DNA of 40,873 nucleotides, from contig JACQVB010000099.1 in NCBI GenBank assembly GCA_016209985.1, positions 1 to 40,873 of the forward strand. The letters run 5' to 3'. The notes under the pieces were generated by a model that did not search any database, had not been told where the DNA came from, and saw nothing but the letters and a program-made list of their open reading frames with translations. The first letter of the stretch is position 1. The number at the start of each line of letters is the position of its first letter. This DNA is from Gemmatimonadota bacterium (lineage in GTDB: Bacteria; Gemmatimonadota; Gemmatimonadetes; Gemmatimonadales; GWC2-71-9). This document shows, one piece after another, positions 6-39,955 of the stretch. Both the position numbers and the translations under genes were made by a program.

Positions 6-68
6 AGAAGGGTTGTAAGGGTTCTAAGGGTTTTGACCCTTAACACCCTTATGACCCTTCTGACCCTT
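6..68. repeat. Palindromic array of 9-base units, terminator-like
   Basis: The hexamer AAGGGT occurs at 8, 17 and 26, and its complement ACCCTT at 36, 45, 54 and 63, all at an exact period of 9. The two halves face each other and can fold into one long imperfect hairpin with a T-rich turn at 31-34. The array ends about 9 bases past the stop codon of the leftward gene at 77, so it probably ends that transcript. The unit resembles telomeric repeats only by chance. A second element of the same build but a different sequence (period 7) lies at 10100-10172. Confidence 0.8.
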
Positions 69-4809: not shown

Positions 4810-5133
4810 CTAACAACACGCCCGGGTGCAGCTCCCCGCGTGCTTGCCGGGCTTCACCGCCCCGAGGAACTCCGCCATCTCGTTCAGGGCCTCACGATTG
4901 AGTGAGTAGTGAACCCAGCGCCCGTCGCGGCGGTCCGTAACGATCCCGGCATCCTTGAGTGTCTTCAGGTGAAACGAAAGCCGCGACTGGGCCGCCTTGA
5001 GCGACCCAGTCAGCTCGCACACGCACCGCTCCCCATGCGAGAGCATCTCGACGATCTCGAGGCGGGTCTCGTCGGAGAGCGCGTGGAACCAGCGCGCGGC
5101 GCGAGTGGCCGGTGGAAGAGTGGCGGTGCTCAT
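4810..5133 (-). CDS. arsR: ArsR-family arsenite-responsive repressor
   Basis: 107 residues, a winged-helix repressor that leaves DNA when As(III) binds. The DNA-reading helix is in LKAAQSRLSFHLKTLKDAGIV. The metal site CVCEL gives C37 and C39, the classic ArsR pair at the start of the DNA-binding helix. The C-terminus adds C102, C106 and C107, as in ArsR subtypes that bind arsenic with a third cysteine near the end. The start codon lies 6 bases after a TATATT box, so the mRNA is probably leaderless. The repressor most likely controls itself through 5145-5160 and arsM-acr3 through 4773-4788. Confidence 0.93.
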   Translation of the reverse strand: MSTATLPPATRAARWFHALSDETRLEIVEMLSHGERCVCELTGSLKAAQSRLSFHLKTLKDAGIVTDRRDGRWVHYSLNREALNEMAEFLGAVKPGKHAGSCTRACC

Positions 5134-24056: not shown

Positions 24057-25009
24057 GTTTGCTGTAGCCTCTGAAACTCGGACAGGTAGCGCTGGCCGCC
24101 GTCGGGAGCGATGACCACCACCACCGGATTCTCTCCGTCGGGCCCGCGGGCGCCACCGCGCACCAGCCGCTCCACGGCCGCAACGGCAGCGCCGGTCGAC
24201 CAGCCCACGAACAGGCCGTCCCGGGCCGCCAGCAGGCGGACCATTGCCTCCGCATCTTCGGTCGAGACGAACAGGGTCCGGTCAACGGACGAGGGGTGGT
24301 AGATCGGCGGGACGATCGCCGCGTCCATTCGCTTGAGTCCCTCCAGACCGTGGAAGGAACTGTCCGGTTCCACCGCGACGAGCTGGATCTCGGGGCGCTT
24401 TTCTTTCAGGAATTTTCCGGTCCCCATCAGGGTCCCGCTGGTGCCGATGCCCGCCACGAGGTGCGTCACCGTCCCGCCGGTCGCCCGCCAGATCTCGGGA
24501 CCGGTGGTCGAGTAATGCGAGCGTGGATTGGCCGGGTTGCCGTACTGGTCGGCGTACCAGAACCGGTCGGGTTGGCTCTGGGCCAGCTCGCGCGCGCGCC
24601 GAATCGCCCCGTCGCTTCCCTCCAGCGGATCGGTCTGGATGACCTCCGCCCCGAACACGGCCAGCAGCTTCCGGCGTTCGACCGACGCATTGGCCGGAAC
24701 ACAGACGGTCACGCCGGCGCCGGCCGCGGCGCCCAGCAGCGCATAGCCGATGGCCGTGTTGCCGCTCGATGCGTCGAGCAGCCGCCGCCCCGGCAAGGCA
24801 CCCTCGCGGAACCCCGCACGCAGGATCTCCCGGGCCGGGCGGTCCTTGACTGAGCCGCTGGGGTTCTGCCACTCGGCCTTGAGGAACACGCGGTGGCGCT
24901 CCCCGTTGCCCGGAAGGTCCAGCGGGATCAGCGGGGTGTTGCCCACCAGCTGCCAGACAGCCGGTTCTTTCGCCGAGACACGCGGCGGTTCCAAGGTCGC
25001 TTTCATCAC
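24053..25009 (-). CDS. cysM: PLP-dependent cysteine synthase, CysM-like
   Basis: 318 residues. It makes cysteine from an activated serine and sulfide (or a sulfur carrier). The PLP lysine is K55 in NPSGSVKDRP. ASSGNTAIGYA binds substrate, and GIGTSGTLMGTGKFL binds the phosphate. YADQYGNPANPRSHYSTTGPEI and the SVERRKLL stretch resemble actinobacterial CysM, which prefers O-phosphoserine. The choice between O-acetylserine and O-phosphoserine is open. MetMet starts the frame; the ribosome site AGGAGTG lies just ahead. It is the first gene of the operon, and the leader at 25049-25301 controls entry to it. Confidence 0.9.
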   Translation of the reverse strand: MMKATLEPPRVSAKEPAVWQLVGNTPLIPLDLPGNGERHRVFLKAEWQNPSGSVKDRPAREILRAGFREGALPGRRLLDASSGNTAIGYALLGAAAGAGVTVCVPANASVERRKLLAVFGAEVIQTDPLEGSDGAIRRARELAQSQPDRFWYADQYGNPANPRSHYSTTGPEIWRATGGTVTHLVAGIGTSGTLMGTGKFLKEKRPEIQLVAVEPDSSFHGLEGLKRMDAAIVPPIYHPSSVDRTLFVSTEDAEAMVRLLAARDGLFVGWSTGAAVAAVERLVRGGARGPDGENPVVVVIAPDGGQRYLSEFQRLQQT

Positions 25010-25048
25010 ACTCCTGACGCTCCTGGCTCCCGGGATCCCCGGGGGGCG

Positions 25049-25089
25049 AAAAACAAAAAGGCCGCGAGACCGTTGGGGGACTCGCGACC
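25049..25089 (-). terminator. Rho-independent terminator (attenuator) before cysM
   Basis: On the minus strand GGTCGCGAG (25089-25081) pairs with CTCGCGGCC (25068-25060), nine pairs with one G-U, and is followed by TTTTTGTTTTT. It ends about 40 bases before the cysM start and after the leader peptide, so it would stop most transcripts unless its 5' arm is captured. The leader segment GGGAGACCCGACC (25174-25162) can pair with that arm (GGTCG and TCCC), giving a candidate antiterminator. Confidence 0.8.
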
Positions 25090-25109
25090 AGTGAGACTTG
25101 CTCGATGAC

Positions 25110-25123
25110 GGGGCTCTAGCCCC
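25110..25123 (-). other. Small hairpin between leader peptide and terminator
   Basis: GGGGCTAGAGCCCC forms a five-pair stem with a short loop, 12 bases after the leader-peptide stop codon. It could be a pause site or part of the switch between the antiterminator and terminator folds. Confidence 0.5.
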
Positions 25124-25134
25124 TGAAAGAACCT

Positions 25135-25239
25135 CTATCCATCATTCGCGCGCAGCACCGTGGTCGGGTCTCCCATGGGCATACACATGGGCCGACAACA
25201 ACAACACGGGCAGAAGACCTGGGCGCGCTGGCTCGACAT
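25135..25239 (-). CDS. Cysteine-rich leader peptide (34 residues), attenuator
   Basis: ATG at 25239 to TAG at 25137-25135. The peptide holds six cysteines: Cys10, then Cys12-Cys15 in a row (TGC CCG TGT TGT TGT TGT), and Cys19 between two methionines (segment FCPCCCCRPMCM). It encodes no recognisable domain. It sits between a good promoter (25301-25273) and a terminator (25089-25049) in front of the cysteine synthase operon. I infer that ribosomes stall at the Cys run when charged Cys-tRNA is scarce, leaving 25174-25162 free to pair with the terminator's 5' arm, so the operon is read. Polycysteine leader peptides that attenuate cysteine genes are known in mycobacteria. No strong ribosome site is seen (GAG at about -14). 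Confidence 0.75.
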   Translation of the reverse strand: MSSQRAQVFCPCCCCRPMCMPMGDPTTVLRANDG

Positions 25240-25272
25240 GGTATAGTTGTTCTCGTTCGTTCCGATGGGGAA

Positions 25273-25301
25273 AGGCTATCTCTCACCTCAGCGCGGGTCA
25301 A
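25273..25301 (-). promoter_or_regulatory. Promoter of the cysM-cysG-sir operon leader
   Basis: TTGACC (25301-25296) and TAGCCT (25278-25273) are exactly 17 bases apart on the minus strand. Transcription would begin near 25266, about 27 bases before the leader-peptide ATG. A TATACC just before that ATG is a second candidate -10 box, but has no -35 partner and would start inside the peptide. Confidence 0.6.
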
Positions 25302-25384
25302 GTCCCGGGGGCCGTCCCTGGCGCCTGATCGCGAGGACACCGCGCTTATGTAACCTTCGATAGGACCCCTCTTTCGAAGGATGT

Positions 25385-25683
25385 ATGCGACTTTTCCGTC
25401 TGCTTCTCGTCGTTGCCGCCTCGAGCACTCCACAGCTTCTCACTGCCCAATCGACCTTGTACCGGCCACCCAATCTCGGAAACATGTGGGACCGAATGGG
25501 TGGCGCTGGTCGCCGGACTGCTCAGCGCCAACGTGCCGGCGCCGCCCGTGCGCTGGAGTGGCGCGGGCGGGCTCGCGGACACGCCGTTACCGGGAATCGA
25601 GACCGCGTCGCGGGAGTACCGGCAGCCAAATGAGGAGGAGGTTGAGCGAGAGGGTCGGGGCGTTGGGCCGAGCCTGAACGCGA
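25385..25683 (+). pseudogene. Remnant of an exported porin-like protein
   Basis: GAAGG lies 4 bases before the ATG at 25385, and residues 1-22 form a signal peptide (LFRLLLVVAASSTPQLLTAQ) followed by STLYRPPNLGNMWD. That junction resembles the mature start of small exported proteins I associate with Gemmatimonadota. Beyond about 25490 this frame turns into arginine-rich shadow sequence, while a second frame gives plausible protein (VPAPPVRWSGAG, GIETASREYRQPNEEE). A frameshift or deletion is the simplest reading. The hairpin CCTTCGA ... TCGAAGG (25353-25380) stands just before it. Confidence 0.4.
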
Positions 25684-26880
25684 CTAGCGAGCCACCTGCA
25701 CTGCGATCAACGTGCCGGTGTGCCGGATGCCATCCTTGAAGTAGTCGACTCGCACCGGGAAGGGCGTGCCGGGTGGGGCGCGGTAGCCGTTCAGTCGGTA
25801 GACGATCCCCTGCGACGGGCCGAGGTTGGTGGGTGACACGAGAATGGCGTCCCAGCGGTCCTGGGTGACGCCACCGCCACCGCTGCCGCTCACGGGACCA
25901 TCAACCCAGGTTCCTTCCACGAATGCCGAGTAGGCGACCGACGCGCCGCCCCCGATGATGTCGAGGTAGACGTCCCAGGTAACATCGACCGCCGTTCCCT
26001 CGAGTTGTCCGGTCACCCGGTACACGCCTTCGCGCGGATCACGCTGGGGGGCCGTCACCTTCAGGTAGTAGCTCACCGGCGCCACGCTGCCGAAGACACC
26101 GATGCCGCCGCTCAGATGATTGGCGAATCCGCGCGCGGTGAAGGGATCGTTGCCGGAGCGCATGAAATCGAACGTGTTGGTGTCAGTCGCGGCCACGGTC
26201 AGGGTGTAGTACTCACCGGCCCGGAAGGCGACTTCCTCGTCGACCGGATTGACCAGGGTAATGGGCACCGTGATCTGCGTGGCGTCGGTCACCCACGAAT
26301 AACGGCCGGTCGATCCGGTGAACCCGGACACCCACTCCACCTGCACGCCCCGCGCGCCAACCGGATCGATCTCGATCGTGATCGTATCACGGGTCCGATC
26401 CACGGTGGAGCGTGACGGAGGAAGCGGTAGAACGGCATTGGCCGACTGCGCCAGAGCCGCTCGCACGCCGGGAATGCGGGTGCTGCCGGTGACGACCGCA
26501 CCGTCCGGGGTCTCGACGCGAAGCGCCACGCGGTCGCCGGCCGAAAGGGGACAGAGCCGCGTGGTGGTGTACCAGCCGCCCTGGACGTGGGTCAAGGGCG
26601 AGTCCACCACCACCTGGTCGAGCTTCACCTCCGGCACGTCGCACGGTCCGTTCCCCTGATAGGTGAGCGTGACCGTGGCGCCATTGACGGCGGTAGGCCC
26701 GAACCGGGACGTCCCATCCAGCGATCGCTCGAGGAACACGTCCTGGGAATCGCGTGCCGTGTTGAGCACGCTGTAGACCACGACCATGGACGTGCCGGGC
26801 GGCACCGGACCTTCCTCGGAGAGCTTGCAGCCGCTCGCGATGAGCCCGGCCACCAGCAGCGCGACGGATCGCTTCACCAC
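25684..26880 (-). CDS. DUF4249-family lipoprotein, partner of a TonB receptor
   Basis: 398 residues. The lipobox VAGLIASGCKL gives C18 as the lipid anchor. The rest is beta-rich: Ig-like strands at 30-130 (VVVYSVLNTARDSQDVFLERS, VNGATVTLTYQG) match DUF4249. Such lipoproteins are usually encoded beside outer-membrane TonB receptors and are thought to help capture a ligand or cover the barrel. Here the start overlaps the receptor's stop by 7 bases. The ligand is unknown. Confidence 0.8.
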   Translation of the reverse strand: MVKRSVALLVAGLIASGCKLSEEGPVPPGTSMVVVYSVLNTARDSQDVFLERSLDGTSRFGPTAVNGATVTLTYQGNGPCDVPEVKLDQVVVDSPLTHVQGGWYTTTRLCPLSAGDRVALRVETPDGAVVTGSTRIPGVRAALAQSANAVLPLPPSRSTVDRTRDTITIEIDPVGARGVQVEWVSGFTGSTGRYSWVTDATQITVPITLVNPVDEEVAFRAGEYYTLTVAATDTNTFDFMRSGNDPFTARGFANHLSGGIGVFGSVAPVSYYLKVTAPQRDPREGVYRVTGQLEGTAVDVTWDVYLDIIGGGASVAYSAFVEGTWVDGPVSGSGGGGVTQDRWDAILVSPTNLGPSQGIVYRLNGYRAPPGTPFPVRVDYFKDGIRHTGTLIAVQVAR

Positions 26881-29111
26881 GAGAACTCCGCGCCGAAACT
26901 CAGCAGGAAGGGAAGCTGAAACAGCGTGGTCCGTCGGGGCGGCGCGGACCCGAAGTCATAGAAGTGCGCGAAGACGTTCCGCCGGTTGTAGACGTTTACC
27001 ACCTGGAGGTAGGGCTCCCACTGCACCGACCAGAGGTGGCCTCGCCACCTCAGGCCCAAGTCGCCTCGCGAATAGGCCGGGTAGCGCGCGCTGTTGAGGG
27101 CGCCGCCCAGCGGCTCATTCTCGGGCTGCACGAACCTGCCGCGCGTGGGACTGTATTCCGTGTGGCGCCACTCGCCGATGAAGGGCGTATAGGGGAGCGG
27201 CGAGCCGAGTCCCCAGCGGAGCGCCATCTCGCTGTGGAGGGGACCCGGAAGCTCGACGACGATGTTGAGCGTGTGGCGCCGGTCGTGTGACGGCTGATAC
27301 GTCAGCCCTTCCGATTCCCTCACCGCGCGCCCGAAGCTGTATGCCACCCAGCCGCGCACCGTACCGGCATGGCGCCGCAGCAGAAGGTCAATGCCCCACG
27401 CGTTTCCCCGCACCGGCCGGAATTCGTCTTCCGGAGCGCGGTTGGCAAAGCCTTCGCGTGGCGCGATCAAGTCATCGAACGTCTTCCGGTAGGCTTCGAT
27501 CGAAATCTGGTTCGCGGCGCCCAGCCAGCGCTCGTAGCCGACGACCAGGTGGTCCGACCTGGCCACGGGCACATTGCGGTCGGCTCCGACCCAGAACTCG
27601 AAAATGTCGAGCGGCACCTCCTGGTCCCGCGCCGACTGGACCACCTGGTGATACCGTCCGGCCGATCCGGTGAGGGCCTGATCCGGGGTAAGGAAGAATT
27701 TGAACGAGGCGCGTGGCGAGAGCCCCGTGAACGATGCGCCGGGCACGCGGTCGCCGCGCACTCCGCCTCGCACCAGTAGCGACGGCATCACCTGCCACTG
27801 ATCGTCGAGAACGGCGGACCACACCCGCGGCTGGTGGTTCCGGCGGTAAAAGGCGCTATCGCCCAGGGCGGCCGCCGAGATGGTGAACGGCAGGTCGTAT
27901 GTTTCGAATTGACCGCCCAGTCCGATGCTGTGCGAGCCCGCCGTCAAGGTCGCCGCGGTGCGGCCGGACCAGAGCCTGGCCCGGTTCCCGAGCTCCAGCA
28001 GCCCGGGGAACCCGAACCCGATGGAGAACTCGGTGTAGCTCAGGTGTTGATTGAAGACGGTGCGGCCGGCGCGGTGCCTCCAGTTGGCGGCCGCGAGTGA
28101 GTTGCCCCAATGGAAACGCAGGTCGATGGGATCCACGCCCTCGCTTCCCTCGATCAGATTCTGATCGAGAATGTCGCGGTCCCAGAACGCCGTCAGGGAC
28201 AGCTCGCTACCCGACCCATAGGGCAGGTTGACCTTGCCGATGGCGTCGGCGAAGTAGTACGGGAACTCTTCCTTGGAAAACGCCTTGATCACCTGGTCTA
28301 CGTAGGTCCGTCGCGCCCCAACCAGGATCGAGGACGGGCCGACGGGGCCCTCCAGCAGGAGTTTGCTCGAGAGGAGCGTGATGGCTCCGCTTCCGTGCCA
28401 GCGCTCGGTGCTGCCGGGGCGCACGTTGATGTCGAGAATGCTGCTCAGGCGGCCGGGGTAGGTCGCGGGGAAGCCGCTGGTCATGAAGTCCACGCGGTCG
28501 ATCGCGTTCACGTCGAAGGTGCCGAACAGGCCGCCCAGATGCGACGGGTTGAAGACGGTGGCACCGTCCACCGCCACCAGGTTCTGATCGGCTTCCCCGC
28601 CGCGGACGTTGTAGCCGATGGAGTAGTCGTTCCGGGCGACCGTGCCGGGGAGGAGCTGGATCGCGCGGATCACGTCCGGCTCGAGCAGCGCGGGGGTGCG
28701 GGCGATGTCACGGGCGGAGAGCGTAACGATGCCCGGCAGGGCGAGGGTGTCGAAGCGGGCACGTTCGGGCGCCACTTCGGCCTCGACCCGGACCACGCCC
28801 AGGGGGACCGCCAGCAGGCGGGCATAGATCACCACCGAATCCTGCCCTGCTGGAACGGAGACGGTATCGGGAACGATTCCCACGCGTCGGATGGCGATCT
28901 GAATGCTTCCCGGCGGTGCGTCGAGTGTGAAAGTGCCGCTCGAGTCGGTGAGCCCGAAGCGGCCCCCACTCACGGTCACCTGGACCGAAGCCAGCGGAGT
29001 GCTATCTGACAGTGAGAGAACCCGGCCAGCGATGCTCCGCTGGTCCTGAGCCGGCAGTTGGGCAGCCGCCGCGGCCAGCGCGAGCGCGAATACTCCGGCG
29101 CTTCTCAGCAT
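26874..29111 (-). CDS. TonB-dependent outer-membrane receptor
   Basis: About 745 residues from the ATG at 29111 (signal peptide MLRSAGVFALALAAAAAQ). The frame is open to 29165, but the added residues lack a signal-peptide look. Residues 25-105 form a carboxypeptidase-regulatory-like domain (SIAGRVLSLSDSTPLASVQVTV). Residues 125-235 form the plug (IQLLPGTVARNDYSIGYNVRGGEADQ is the classic plug motif region; VDGATVFNPSHLGG follows). The rest is a 22-stranded barrel ending in an aromatic residue (GAEFSW). The substrate is not evident; no TonB/ExbB genes lie nearby. The DUF4249 lipoprotein is translated right after it. Confidence 0.9.
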   Translation of the reverse strand: MLRSAGVFALALAAAAAQLPAQDQRSIAGRVLSLSDSTPLASVQVTVSGGRFGLTDSSGTFTLDAPPGSIQIAIRRVGIVPDTVSVPAGQDSVVIYARLLAVPLGVVRVEAEVAPERARFDTLALPGIVTLSARDIARTPALLEPDVIRAIQLLPGTVARNDYSIGYNVRGGEADQNLVAVDGATVFNPSHLGGLFGTFDVNAIDRVDFMTSGFPATYPGRLSSILDINVRPGSTERWHGSGAITLLSSKLLLEGPVGPSSILVGARRTYVDQVIKAFSKEEFPYYFADAIGKVNLPYGSGSELSLTAFWDRDILDQNLIEGSEGVDPIDLRFHWGNSLAAANWRHRAGRTVFNQHLSYTEFSIGFGFPGLLELGNRARLWSGRTAATLTAGSHSIGLGGQFETYDLPFTISAAALGDSAFYRRNHQPRVWSAVLDDQWQVMPSLLVRGGVRGDRVPGASFTGLSPRASFKFFLTPDQALTGSAGRYHQVVQSARDQEVPLDIFEFWVGADRNVPVARSDHLVVGYERWLGAANQISIEAYRKTFDDLIAPREGFANRAPEDEFRPVRGNAWGIDLLLRRHAGTVRGWVAYSFGRAVRESEGLTYQPSHDRRHTLNIVVELPGPLHSEMALRWGLGSPLPYTPFIGEWRHTEYSPTRGRFVQPENEPLGGALNSARYPAYSRGDLGLRWRGHLWSVQWEPYLQVVNVYNRRNVFAHFYDFGSAPPRRTTLFQLPFLLSFGAEFSW

Positions 29112-29349
29112 GGGAAGAATCTGCCTTCTGTGGGCGCTGCCGGATATGACGTTAGGAACGAGCATCCGGTTTAGCGGGGACCGGACCGATAACCCTACCG
29201 GCGCGCCTCGCTGCAGTCGCGCTACTCGCCCTCACCGATTCCGGCCGGCCGTGCCGCTTCGGTAAGAACTTTTCAGAATACCTGACCAGCATTGCCGGTC
29301 GCCGCATTCCGCACAATGTTTCGCGGTGTCTCCCCCGGGAGCCCTCGAC

Positions 29350-38590: not shown

Positions 38591-38664
38591 CGGGACGTAG
38601 CGCAGTCCGGTAGCGCACCTGAATGGGGTTCAGGGGGTCCCGGGTTCAAATCCCGGCGTACCGA
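38591..38664 (+). tRNA. tRNA-Pro (anticodon GGG)
   Basis: 74 bases fold as a tRNA. The D-arm is GCGC-AGTCCGGTA-GCGC. The anticodon stem CCTGA/TCAGG holds the loop ATGGGGT with anticodon GGG at its centre. The T-arm is CCGGG-TTCAAAT-CCCGG. The acceptor stem CGGGACG/CGTACCG has one G-A mismatch at the fourth pair. The discriminator is A and CCA is not encoded. The mismatch and the nearby broken copies leave some doubt whether this is the functional gene. Confidence 0.85.
38617..38649. repeat. attL-like repeat in the 3' half of tRNA-Pro
   Basis: These 33 bases, from the anticodon arm to the T-loop, recur at 40821-40853 with two mismatches and two single-base gaps. Integrating elements commonly use this part of a tRNA gene as their attachment site. 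Confidence 0.6.
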
Positions 38665-38876: not shown

Positions 38877-38916
38877 TGCTCATTATGAGCAACATGACAA
38901 GTTTAGACAACACAAC
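38857..38916. promoter_or_regulatory. Nested dyad operator over the AbiEi-like gene start
   Basis: GTTGCTCAT-T-ATGAGCAAC (38875-38893) is a perfect 19-base palindrome that contains the ATG. An outer pair, GTTGTGT (38857-38863) and ACACAAC (38910-38916), is arranged around nearly the same centre. A dimer or tetramer of the winged-helix product could bind here to repress its own gene, as AbiEi-type antitoxins do. Confidence 0.65.
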
Positions 38917-39955
38917 TGTCACCCGCGCCCTCGAAGCCCTTAGAGCCCGTCTTCCAGCAGGATGGGAGGTGCGGACCCGCGCCCAGGCCCGCGTTGCGAC
39001 CTACCGCCCCGACGCCGTGTTCGAGATTCGGGCGCCGGACGACACCAGGGGGCTACTCCTGGTCGAGGCGAAGTCGCCGCTGACTGCCCGCCTGGCCTCC
39101 GACCTTGGCCCCCGCCTCGCTCCGGTCGTGCGAGAAGGTGAGGCCGCCGGAGCCCTTGTCGTGACGCGATTCGCCAGCGAGCTGAGTCAGGATCGGCTGC
39201 GCCGAGCCGGGGTTTCCTACCTGGACCTGACCGGCAACGCCTGGATCAGCCTCGATCGCCCAGGCTTGCTCATCACCACGCAAGGTGCCAGCAAGGATCC
39301 CTCTCCGCCCCGCCGGGGGGTTCGGTCCCTCAAGGGCGCCAAGGCCGCCCGGCTGGTGCGGGCTATATGCGACTGGCGACCGCCGGTGGGAGTCCGTGAC
39401 CTGGCCAAGCGAGCCGGTACGGATCCGGGCTACACGAGCAGGGTGATCCGCCTGCTGGAGGACGAGGACCTGGTCGGGCGGGACTCGACCGGACAGGTGA
39501 AGACGGTGGACTGGCAGGGACTGCTGCGACGCTGGTCTCGCGACTACGACGTCGCCAAGACCAACCGCGCCGTTGCGTACTTAGCGCCGCGCGGCCTGTC
39601 GGCGTTCGGCGATCAGCTCCGGGAATACGACGAACGGTATGCCGTTACGGGTTCCCTAGCAGTTCCCGCTGCGGCTGCTGTTGCTCCTGGCCGGCTGGCG
39701 TCGTGCTATGTCCAGGATCCCGAGCGGGTCGCTGAACGGTTCGATCTCCGGCCCGTCGACGCCGGTGCGAACGTCTTGCTGCTGGAGCCGTTCGACGAGG
39801 TCGTTTACGAGCGAAGCCGCGGAGAATCGGGCCTCAGGGTTGTCGCCTTGAGTCAGTGTGTGGTGGACCTCCTGACCGGGACGGGTCGCGAGCCAGCGGA
39901 AGCTGAGTCGCTCCTGTCGTGGATGGCCGCGAGCCAAGATGCCTGGCGTGCCTGA
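38885..39955 (+). CDS. AbiEi-like winged-helix regulator with nuclease-like N-terminus
   Basis: 356 residues from the ATG at 38885 (the open frame begins at 38858). Residues 25-130 resemble a restriction-endonuclease fold: D44 region YRPDAVFEIR, then LLLVEAKSPL (E-x-K) and RRAGVSYLDLTGNAWI, the last typical of AbiEi-related proteins. Residues 150-215 form a winged helix (VRDLAKRAGTDPGYTSRVIRLLEDEDLV). The C-terminal 140 residues look like the AbiEi effector part. AbiEi is the antitoxin of a type IV system whose toxin AbiEii is a nucleotidyltransferase, but no such gene follows. It may be an orphan regulator or a defence protein in its own right. Confidence 0.7.
   Translation: MSNMTSLDNTTVTRALEALRARLPAGWEVRTRAQARVATYRPDAVFEIRAPDDTRGLLLVEAKSPLTARLASDLGPRLAPVVREGEAAGALVVTRFASELSQDRLRRAGVSYLDLTGNAWISLDRPGLLITTQGASKDPSPPRRGVRSLKGAKAARLVRAICDWRPPVGVRDLAKRAGTDPGYTSRVIRLLEDEDLVGRDSTGQVKTVDWQGLLRRWSRDYDVAKTNRAVAYLAPRGLSAFGDQLREYDERYAVTGSLAVPAAAAVAPGRLASCYVQDPERVAERFDLRPVDAGANVLLLEPFDEVVYERSRGESGLRVVALSQCVVDLLTGTGREPAEAESLLSWMAASQDAWRA

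Follow-up and report, generated by a model that had tools for sequence, protein, structure and literature searches.

The trp, his and leu attenuators of Enterobacteria place a leader peptide with regulatory codons, and mutually exclusive antiterminator and terminator structures, before a biosynthetic operon. For cysteine, leaders with runs of Cys codons and no terminators were predicted before the cys operons of Mycobacterium and Propionibacterium acnes and before cbs of Bifidobacterium longum (Seliverstov et al. 2005; PMC1262725). According to PMC9031893, PMC9094748 and PMC13236596, leaderless polycysteine small open reading frames (sORFs) of M. smegmatis are cysteine-responsive attenuators (Canestrari et al. 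2020), and the first of these describes mycobacterial cys leaders as controlling downstream translation. In Rhodobacterales, cysS is preceded by a leader with two Cys codons and a terminator, the uORFC-8-2 motif (PMC8632094). A search of the literature on Gemmatimonadota and leader peptides or leaderless initiation found no such leader reported in open-licence papers.

We analysed a stretch of 40,873 nucleotides from a Gemmatimonadota bacterium (contig JACQVB010000099.1), hereafter the window, in which a cysM-like gene is preceded by a short, Cys-rich frame. Judged by its sequence, the region before this gene is a real and conserved cysteine attenuator. Its features, and those of the operon behind it, are as follows.

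25301-25273, minus strand: promoter candidate, TTGACC (25301-25296), 17-nt spacer, TAGCCT (25278-25273)
25266-25264, minus strand: ATC where relatives place the leader ATG; predicted transcription start, from spacing alone
25239-25135, minus strand: leader peptide frame, ATG at 25239, 34 codons MSSQRAQVFCPCCCCRPMCMPMGDPTTVLRANDG, stop 25137-25135
25206-25195, minus strand: four consecutive TGT (Cys) codons, putative stall site (sequence and pattern search)
25176-25151, minus strand: candidate antiterminator segment (segment 2), predicted to pair with the terminator 5' arm (RNAduplex, -23.9 kcal/mol)
25123-25110, minus strand: small hairpin GGGGC-TAGA-GCCCC, 3' of the leader stop codon, in the minimum-energy fold when a ribosome occupies the stop codon
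25089-25049, minus strand: intrinsic terminator, hairpin 25089-25060, then the U-tract TTTTTGTTTTT to 25049
25006-24053, minus strand: cysM-like cysteine synthase, first operon gene (PF00291, 3.7e-65)
24056-22629, minus strand: cysG-type siroheme synthase (NF007922, 486.6 bits, above cut-off)
22632-20806, minus strand: sir, siroheme-dependent sulfite/nitrite reductase, NirA-like (PF01077 and PF03460)

Six of the 34 leader codons specify Cys (codons 10, 12-15 and 19; CPCCCC...MCM). The original prediction had named these six codons, the TGT x4 run, the Met-Cys-Met that follows, a small hairpin after the frame and a terminator about 40 bases before the operon, and all are present on the minus strand of the window. 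The terminator hairpin has a predicted energy of -19.6 kcal/mol (RNAfold) and is followed by its U-tract, though the stem is interrupted by an internal 1x1 mismatch; about 40 nt separate its end from the cysM ATG at 25006, and the AGGAG of that gene lies outside it. The promoter named in the same prediction is also present, but it is weak, its TAGCCT matching TATAAT at 3 of 6 positions. A simple scanner based on consensus patterns reported no promoter and no terminator in this leader, because TAGCCT makes a poor -10 element and the mismatch breaks the stem. Rfam covariance models (riboswitch, T-box and other families) matched nothing in 24990-25400 at E values up to 1.

The original prediction had proposed looking upstream of cysM homologues in relatives and had staked its reading on conservation of the Cys codons or the frame there. 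Orthologous loci were gathered with CysM from three sets (61 relatives, 288 genomes at order level and 395 at phylum level), and regions upstream of cysM, cysG and sir were scanned within the class. Cys-rich frames with terminators do lie at the same place in other genomes: 21 leaders were found in 20 genomes, spanning 12 genera and 6 families (by family code), some start codons of the distant ones being uncertain. Each is a short Cys-rich frame followed by a terminator and then by a cysteine-synthesis or sulfite-reductase operon, and a G+C-rich hairpin with a T-run separates leader and gene in 21 of 21. The peptides end, for example, in ...KACCACCCPRASQEVWSG, ...STCCCPQTSEEVGPG, ...CGCCTCCCCPAP, ...CACICTCRHGG and ...RLCCCACCCGCC. 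Leader peptides and terminators vary in sequence between genera, and the Cys clusters are often CxCxC, not a pure run, with variable spacing (CCC, CxCxC, CC..CC) and variable flanking residues. In one genome (G106) the leader has two clustered Cys codons alone, no more than chance gives.

The distribution of the leaders is patchy. At cysM orthologues of other genera, many with a different gene directly upstream, the scan found no such leader, apart from a few weak frames that were not counted. G006, a near relative in the same family, has none; nor was a leader found before cysS (L083-L088) in the genomes examined, or by the scan before three other cysteine-synthase homologues of the window's genome (L108-L110). 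On a quick CysM tree, leader-bearing rows cluster strongly: the label changes 8 times, against about 15.6 times when labels are shuffled. One row of that tree (L107) was labelled leader-free though its leader precedes the upstream rhodanese gene. Upstream of two leader-free cysM genes (L012, L013) lies a frame with a Cys pattern like that at the end of an Rrf2-type regulator, and at some such loci a protein regulator perhaps stands in for the attenuator.

The operons behind the 21 leaders are of four types: cysM, rhodanese-cysM, cysG-sir and sir-cysG, the last found in G232. In close relatives the leader is followed by cysM, a JAB-type peptidase and a ThiS-ThiF-rhodanese fusion, a set that resembles the mycobacterial CysM/Mec/CysO-MoeZ route. 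The window's genome carries cysG and sir in place of the peptidase and the fusion. In its congener G001 the operon is split into divergent cysM and cysG-sir halves, each with its own Cys leader and terminator (MSITRCCRCPKPLCC... before cysM, MINRPNSAMCCTTC... before cysG). The best NCBIfam models for the window's cysM, cysKM and cysM, both score under their curated cut-offs; those for sir are also below cut-off, so that its assignment to sulfite or to nitrite rests on operon context. Nine genomes (this one and eight relatives) gave no PF01507 (CysD/CysH) match over the family cut-off and thus offer no CysD/CysH operon to check for a leader. At E up to 1e-60, the sulfite-reductase-like gene was found in only 7 of the order's 288 genomes; together with the PF01507 result, sulfate assimilation by a CysD/CysH-type route seems to be absent. 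Further upstream of the leader, on the minus strand, the window encodes a TonB-dependent receptor with a CarboxypepD_reg domain (26874-29165) and then a DUF4249 protein (25684-26880).

The promoters of the relatives bear on how the leaders are translated. In seven relatives a TTGAC-17..19-TANNN(T/A) promoter ends a few nucleotides before the leader ATG, which lies 35-36 nt from the TTGAC. The strict pattern of TTGAC, TANNN(T/A) and start codon matched 14 times in 539 kb, seven of the matches being Cys leaders, against about 2.3 expected from shuffled sequence. That a promoter pattern should hit the leaders at this spacing suggests leaderless initiation, which is apparent in most close relatives, and the leaders of these seven relatives probably start near the RNA 5' end. 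No clear promoter of this kind precedes other leaders, such as those of G420 and the f7 genera. The window's genome differs from its relatives in promoter/ATG spacing: 35 nt separate the first base of TTGACC from the ATC at 25266-25264, and the leader ATG, which has no clear Shine-Dalgarno sequence and is off the predicted RNA start, lies 27 nt downstream of that ATC.

Elsewhere, the cysS gene of G042 (L088) has the leaderless-type promoter spacing of the leaders without a Cys leader. In the window, a 356-aa frame on the plus strand (38885-39955), about 220 bases past a tRNA gene (38591-38664) and with no Pfam match at 1e-5, starts right where a TTGAC-TANNN(T/A) promoter-like pattern ends and is possibly another leaderless gene. 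A 107-aa frame near 5133 on the minus strand (MSTATLPPATRAARWFHALSDETRLEIVEML...), which looks like an ArsR-type regulator, also begins at the end of such a pattern.

An attenuator of the trp type calls for an antiterminator downstream of the regulatory codons. For every leader, the stretch that runs from the last Cys-cluster codon to slightly beyond the stop was paired with the 5' arm of that leader's own terminator. The paired segments of the 21 leaders begin 2-26 nt after the last Cys-cluster codon, and their duplexes are more stable than those of shuffles (Fisher p of about 1e-9 for all 21, related rows not being independent, and 9e-7 for 14 representatives). As the genomes are G+C-rich, terminators were additionally exchanged between leaders; own pairs were better than exchanged ones (z of about -5.7 for the 21 and -4.5 for the representatives), and none of 5000 permutations did as well. 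Both partners vary in sequence between genera, which indicates that complementarity is kept and sequence is not; in the congener's terminator (G001M, L052) a pair is preserved through a G-C to A-U change. The antiterminator originally placed at 25174-25162 falls inside the best predicted duplex of the window's leader and accords with the family-wide pairing, and only 1 of 20 exchanged terminators pairs better than the leader's own, but the duplex by itself is not significant against shuffles (p = 0.16). The antiterminator at this locus is plausible, yet its support comes from the relatives.

In predicted folds of transcripts cut before the terminator 3' arm, the 5' arm is paired upstream with a mean of 0.75 when the ribosome stands at the Cys cluster and 0.34 when it stands at the stop codon, a contrast that is in part trivial, since a ribosome at the stop codon leaves less RNA exposed. 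At equilibrium, the full transcript of most species prefers the terminator fold whether or not a ribosome has stalled; switching as modelled would therefore have to be kinetic and co-transcriptional, with the antiterminator pairing before the 3' arm has been transcribed. Since whole-leader equilibrium folding showed no switching in most species, it was replaced by the duplex and exchange tests.

From the frame, its Cys clusters, the terminator, the gene context, the matched pairing and the class-wide recurrence, all read from sequence and comparison, we infer translation, stalling, termination and a response to cysteine: the locus is very probably a ribosome-mediated transcription attenuator of the trp type, a sensor of charged tRNA-Cys. 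The original reading as ribosome-mediated attenuation thus gains support from the 20 genomes and from the specific terminator/antiterminator complementarity. As RNA polymerase makes the leader, a ribosome would begin translating the Cys-rich frame near the 5' end of the transcript. When Cys-tRNA is short, the ribosome would stall at the Cys cluster and leave segment 2 free to pair with the emerging terminator 5' arm, and transcription would continue into cysM-cysG-sir. When Cys-tRNA is plentiful, the ribosome would get to the stop codon, segment 2 would be covered or refolded with segment 1, the terminator would form and the operon would be off. In several species, however, a ribosome at the stop codon could not cover segment 2, which lies too far away.

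Could the frame be spurious, a Cys-coding string that happens to precede an ordinary terminator? The string alone is not rare: TGYx4 has 41 occurrences genome-wide and the reversed pattern 27. Yet none of 400 dinucleotide shuffles of the leader region held an ATG frame of equal Cys-cluster density, leaders recur in 20 genomes, and the same scan found next to nothing at the cysM orthologues of leader-free lineages, so chance is very improbable. Searches of the window's genome, by pattern matches and selected regions, covered 39 regions besides the cysM leader. Only one of these combines a Cys-rich short frame, opening with GTG, with a terminator-like hairpin of any kind, and that hairpin is weak (-11.2). 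None of the 39 resembles the cysM leader; TGYx4 was dropped as a finder of further leaders, its matches being near background level. The window holds four Cys-rich short frames, and the cysM leader frame is the only one with a terminator behind it.

A Cys-rich nascent peptide might instead stall the ribosome on another signal, such as copper, zinc or thiol redox state, and work the same RNA switch. CxCxC and CCCC...MCM have a metal-binding look, and copper-linked Cys-rich upstream frames are known. We nevertheless consider this unlikely: the downstream genes serve cysteine synthesis or resemble sulfite-reductase and siroheme genes, and the unconserved Cys spacing and variable flanks suit codon counting better than a fixed metal site. 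It is somewhat less likely again that the leader acts on cysM translation or on Rho-dependent termination and that the hairpin is incidental. The mycobacterial leaders lack terminators (PMC1262725), are described in PMC9031893 as acting on downstream translation, and have a leaderless start like that proposed here; against this stand the hairpin and T-run behind every leader, with matched antiterminators, and, in the window, the position of the hairpin short of the cysM AGGAG.

A transcription attenuator read by cysteine codons therefore remains our preferred account of the locus. We also lean, with less assurance, towards a class-wide Gemmatimonadota system in which a leaderless Cys-rich frame is coupled to an intrinsic terminator on several cysteine-supply modules (the CysO/Mec-type cysM operon, rhodanese-cysM and siroheme-sulfite reductase). 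If so, amino-acid attenuation by cysteine codons would extend to a phylum in which the literature search found no such leader reported, and two designs described apart, the leaderless polycysteine frames of mycobacteria and the terminator-based cysteine attenuation of Rhodobacterales cysS, would be joined. Cysteine-responsive operons would be predicted in these largely uncultured bacteria, translation from the first base would link the positions of ribosome and RNA polymerase from the outset, and about 20 natural sequence variants would be available for the study of a leaderless start in transcription attenuation.

The leaders resemble mycobacterial polycysteine sORFs in the short Cys-run frame before cysteine or sulfur genes, in the leaderless start that is probable for seven of the relatives, and in the proposed sensor, elongation speed set by cysteine supply. 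They differ in phylum and partly in genes, and the mycobacterial leaders are described as acting on translation, with no obvious terminator hairpin, whereas the Gemmatimonadota leaders have an intrinsic terminator and a matched antiterminator; a type defined by translational control without a terminator hairpin does not accommodate them. With uORFC-8-2 (PMC8632094) they share a tandem-Cys leader frame, an intrinsic terminator and the same proposed logic, but that motif has two Cys codons, controls cysteinyl-tRNA synthetase and belongs to alphaproteobacteria. 

The layout is that of the enterobacterial trp, his and leu attenuators: a short frame with many codons for the amino acid that the operon supplies, a terminator between frame and first gene, and, across the family if not significantly in the window's sequence alone, an antiterminator that lies 3' of the regulatory codons and takes up the 5' arm of the terminator. 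Here the amino acid is cysteine, the start is probably leaderless and the sequences are unrelated.
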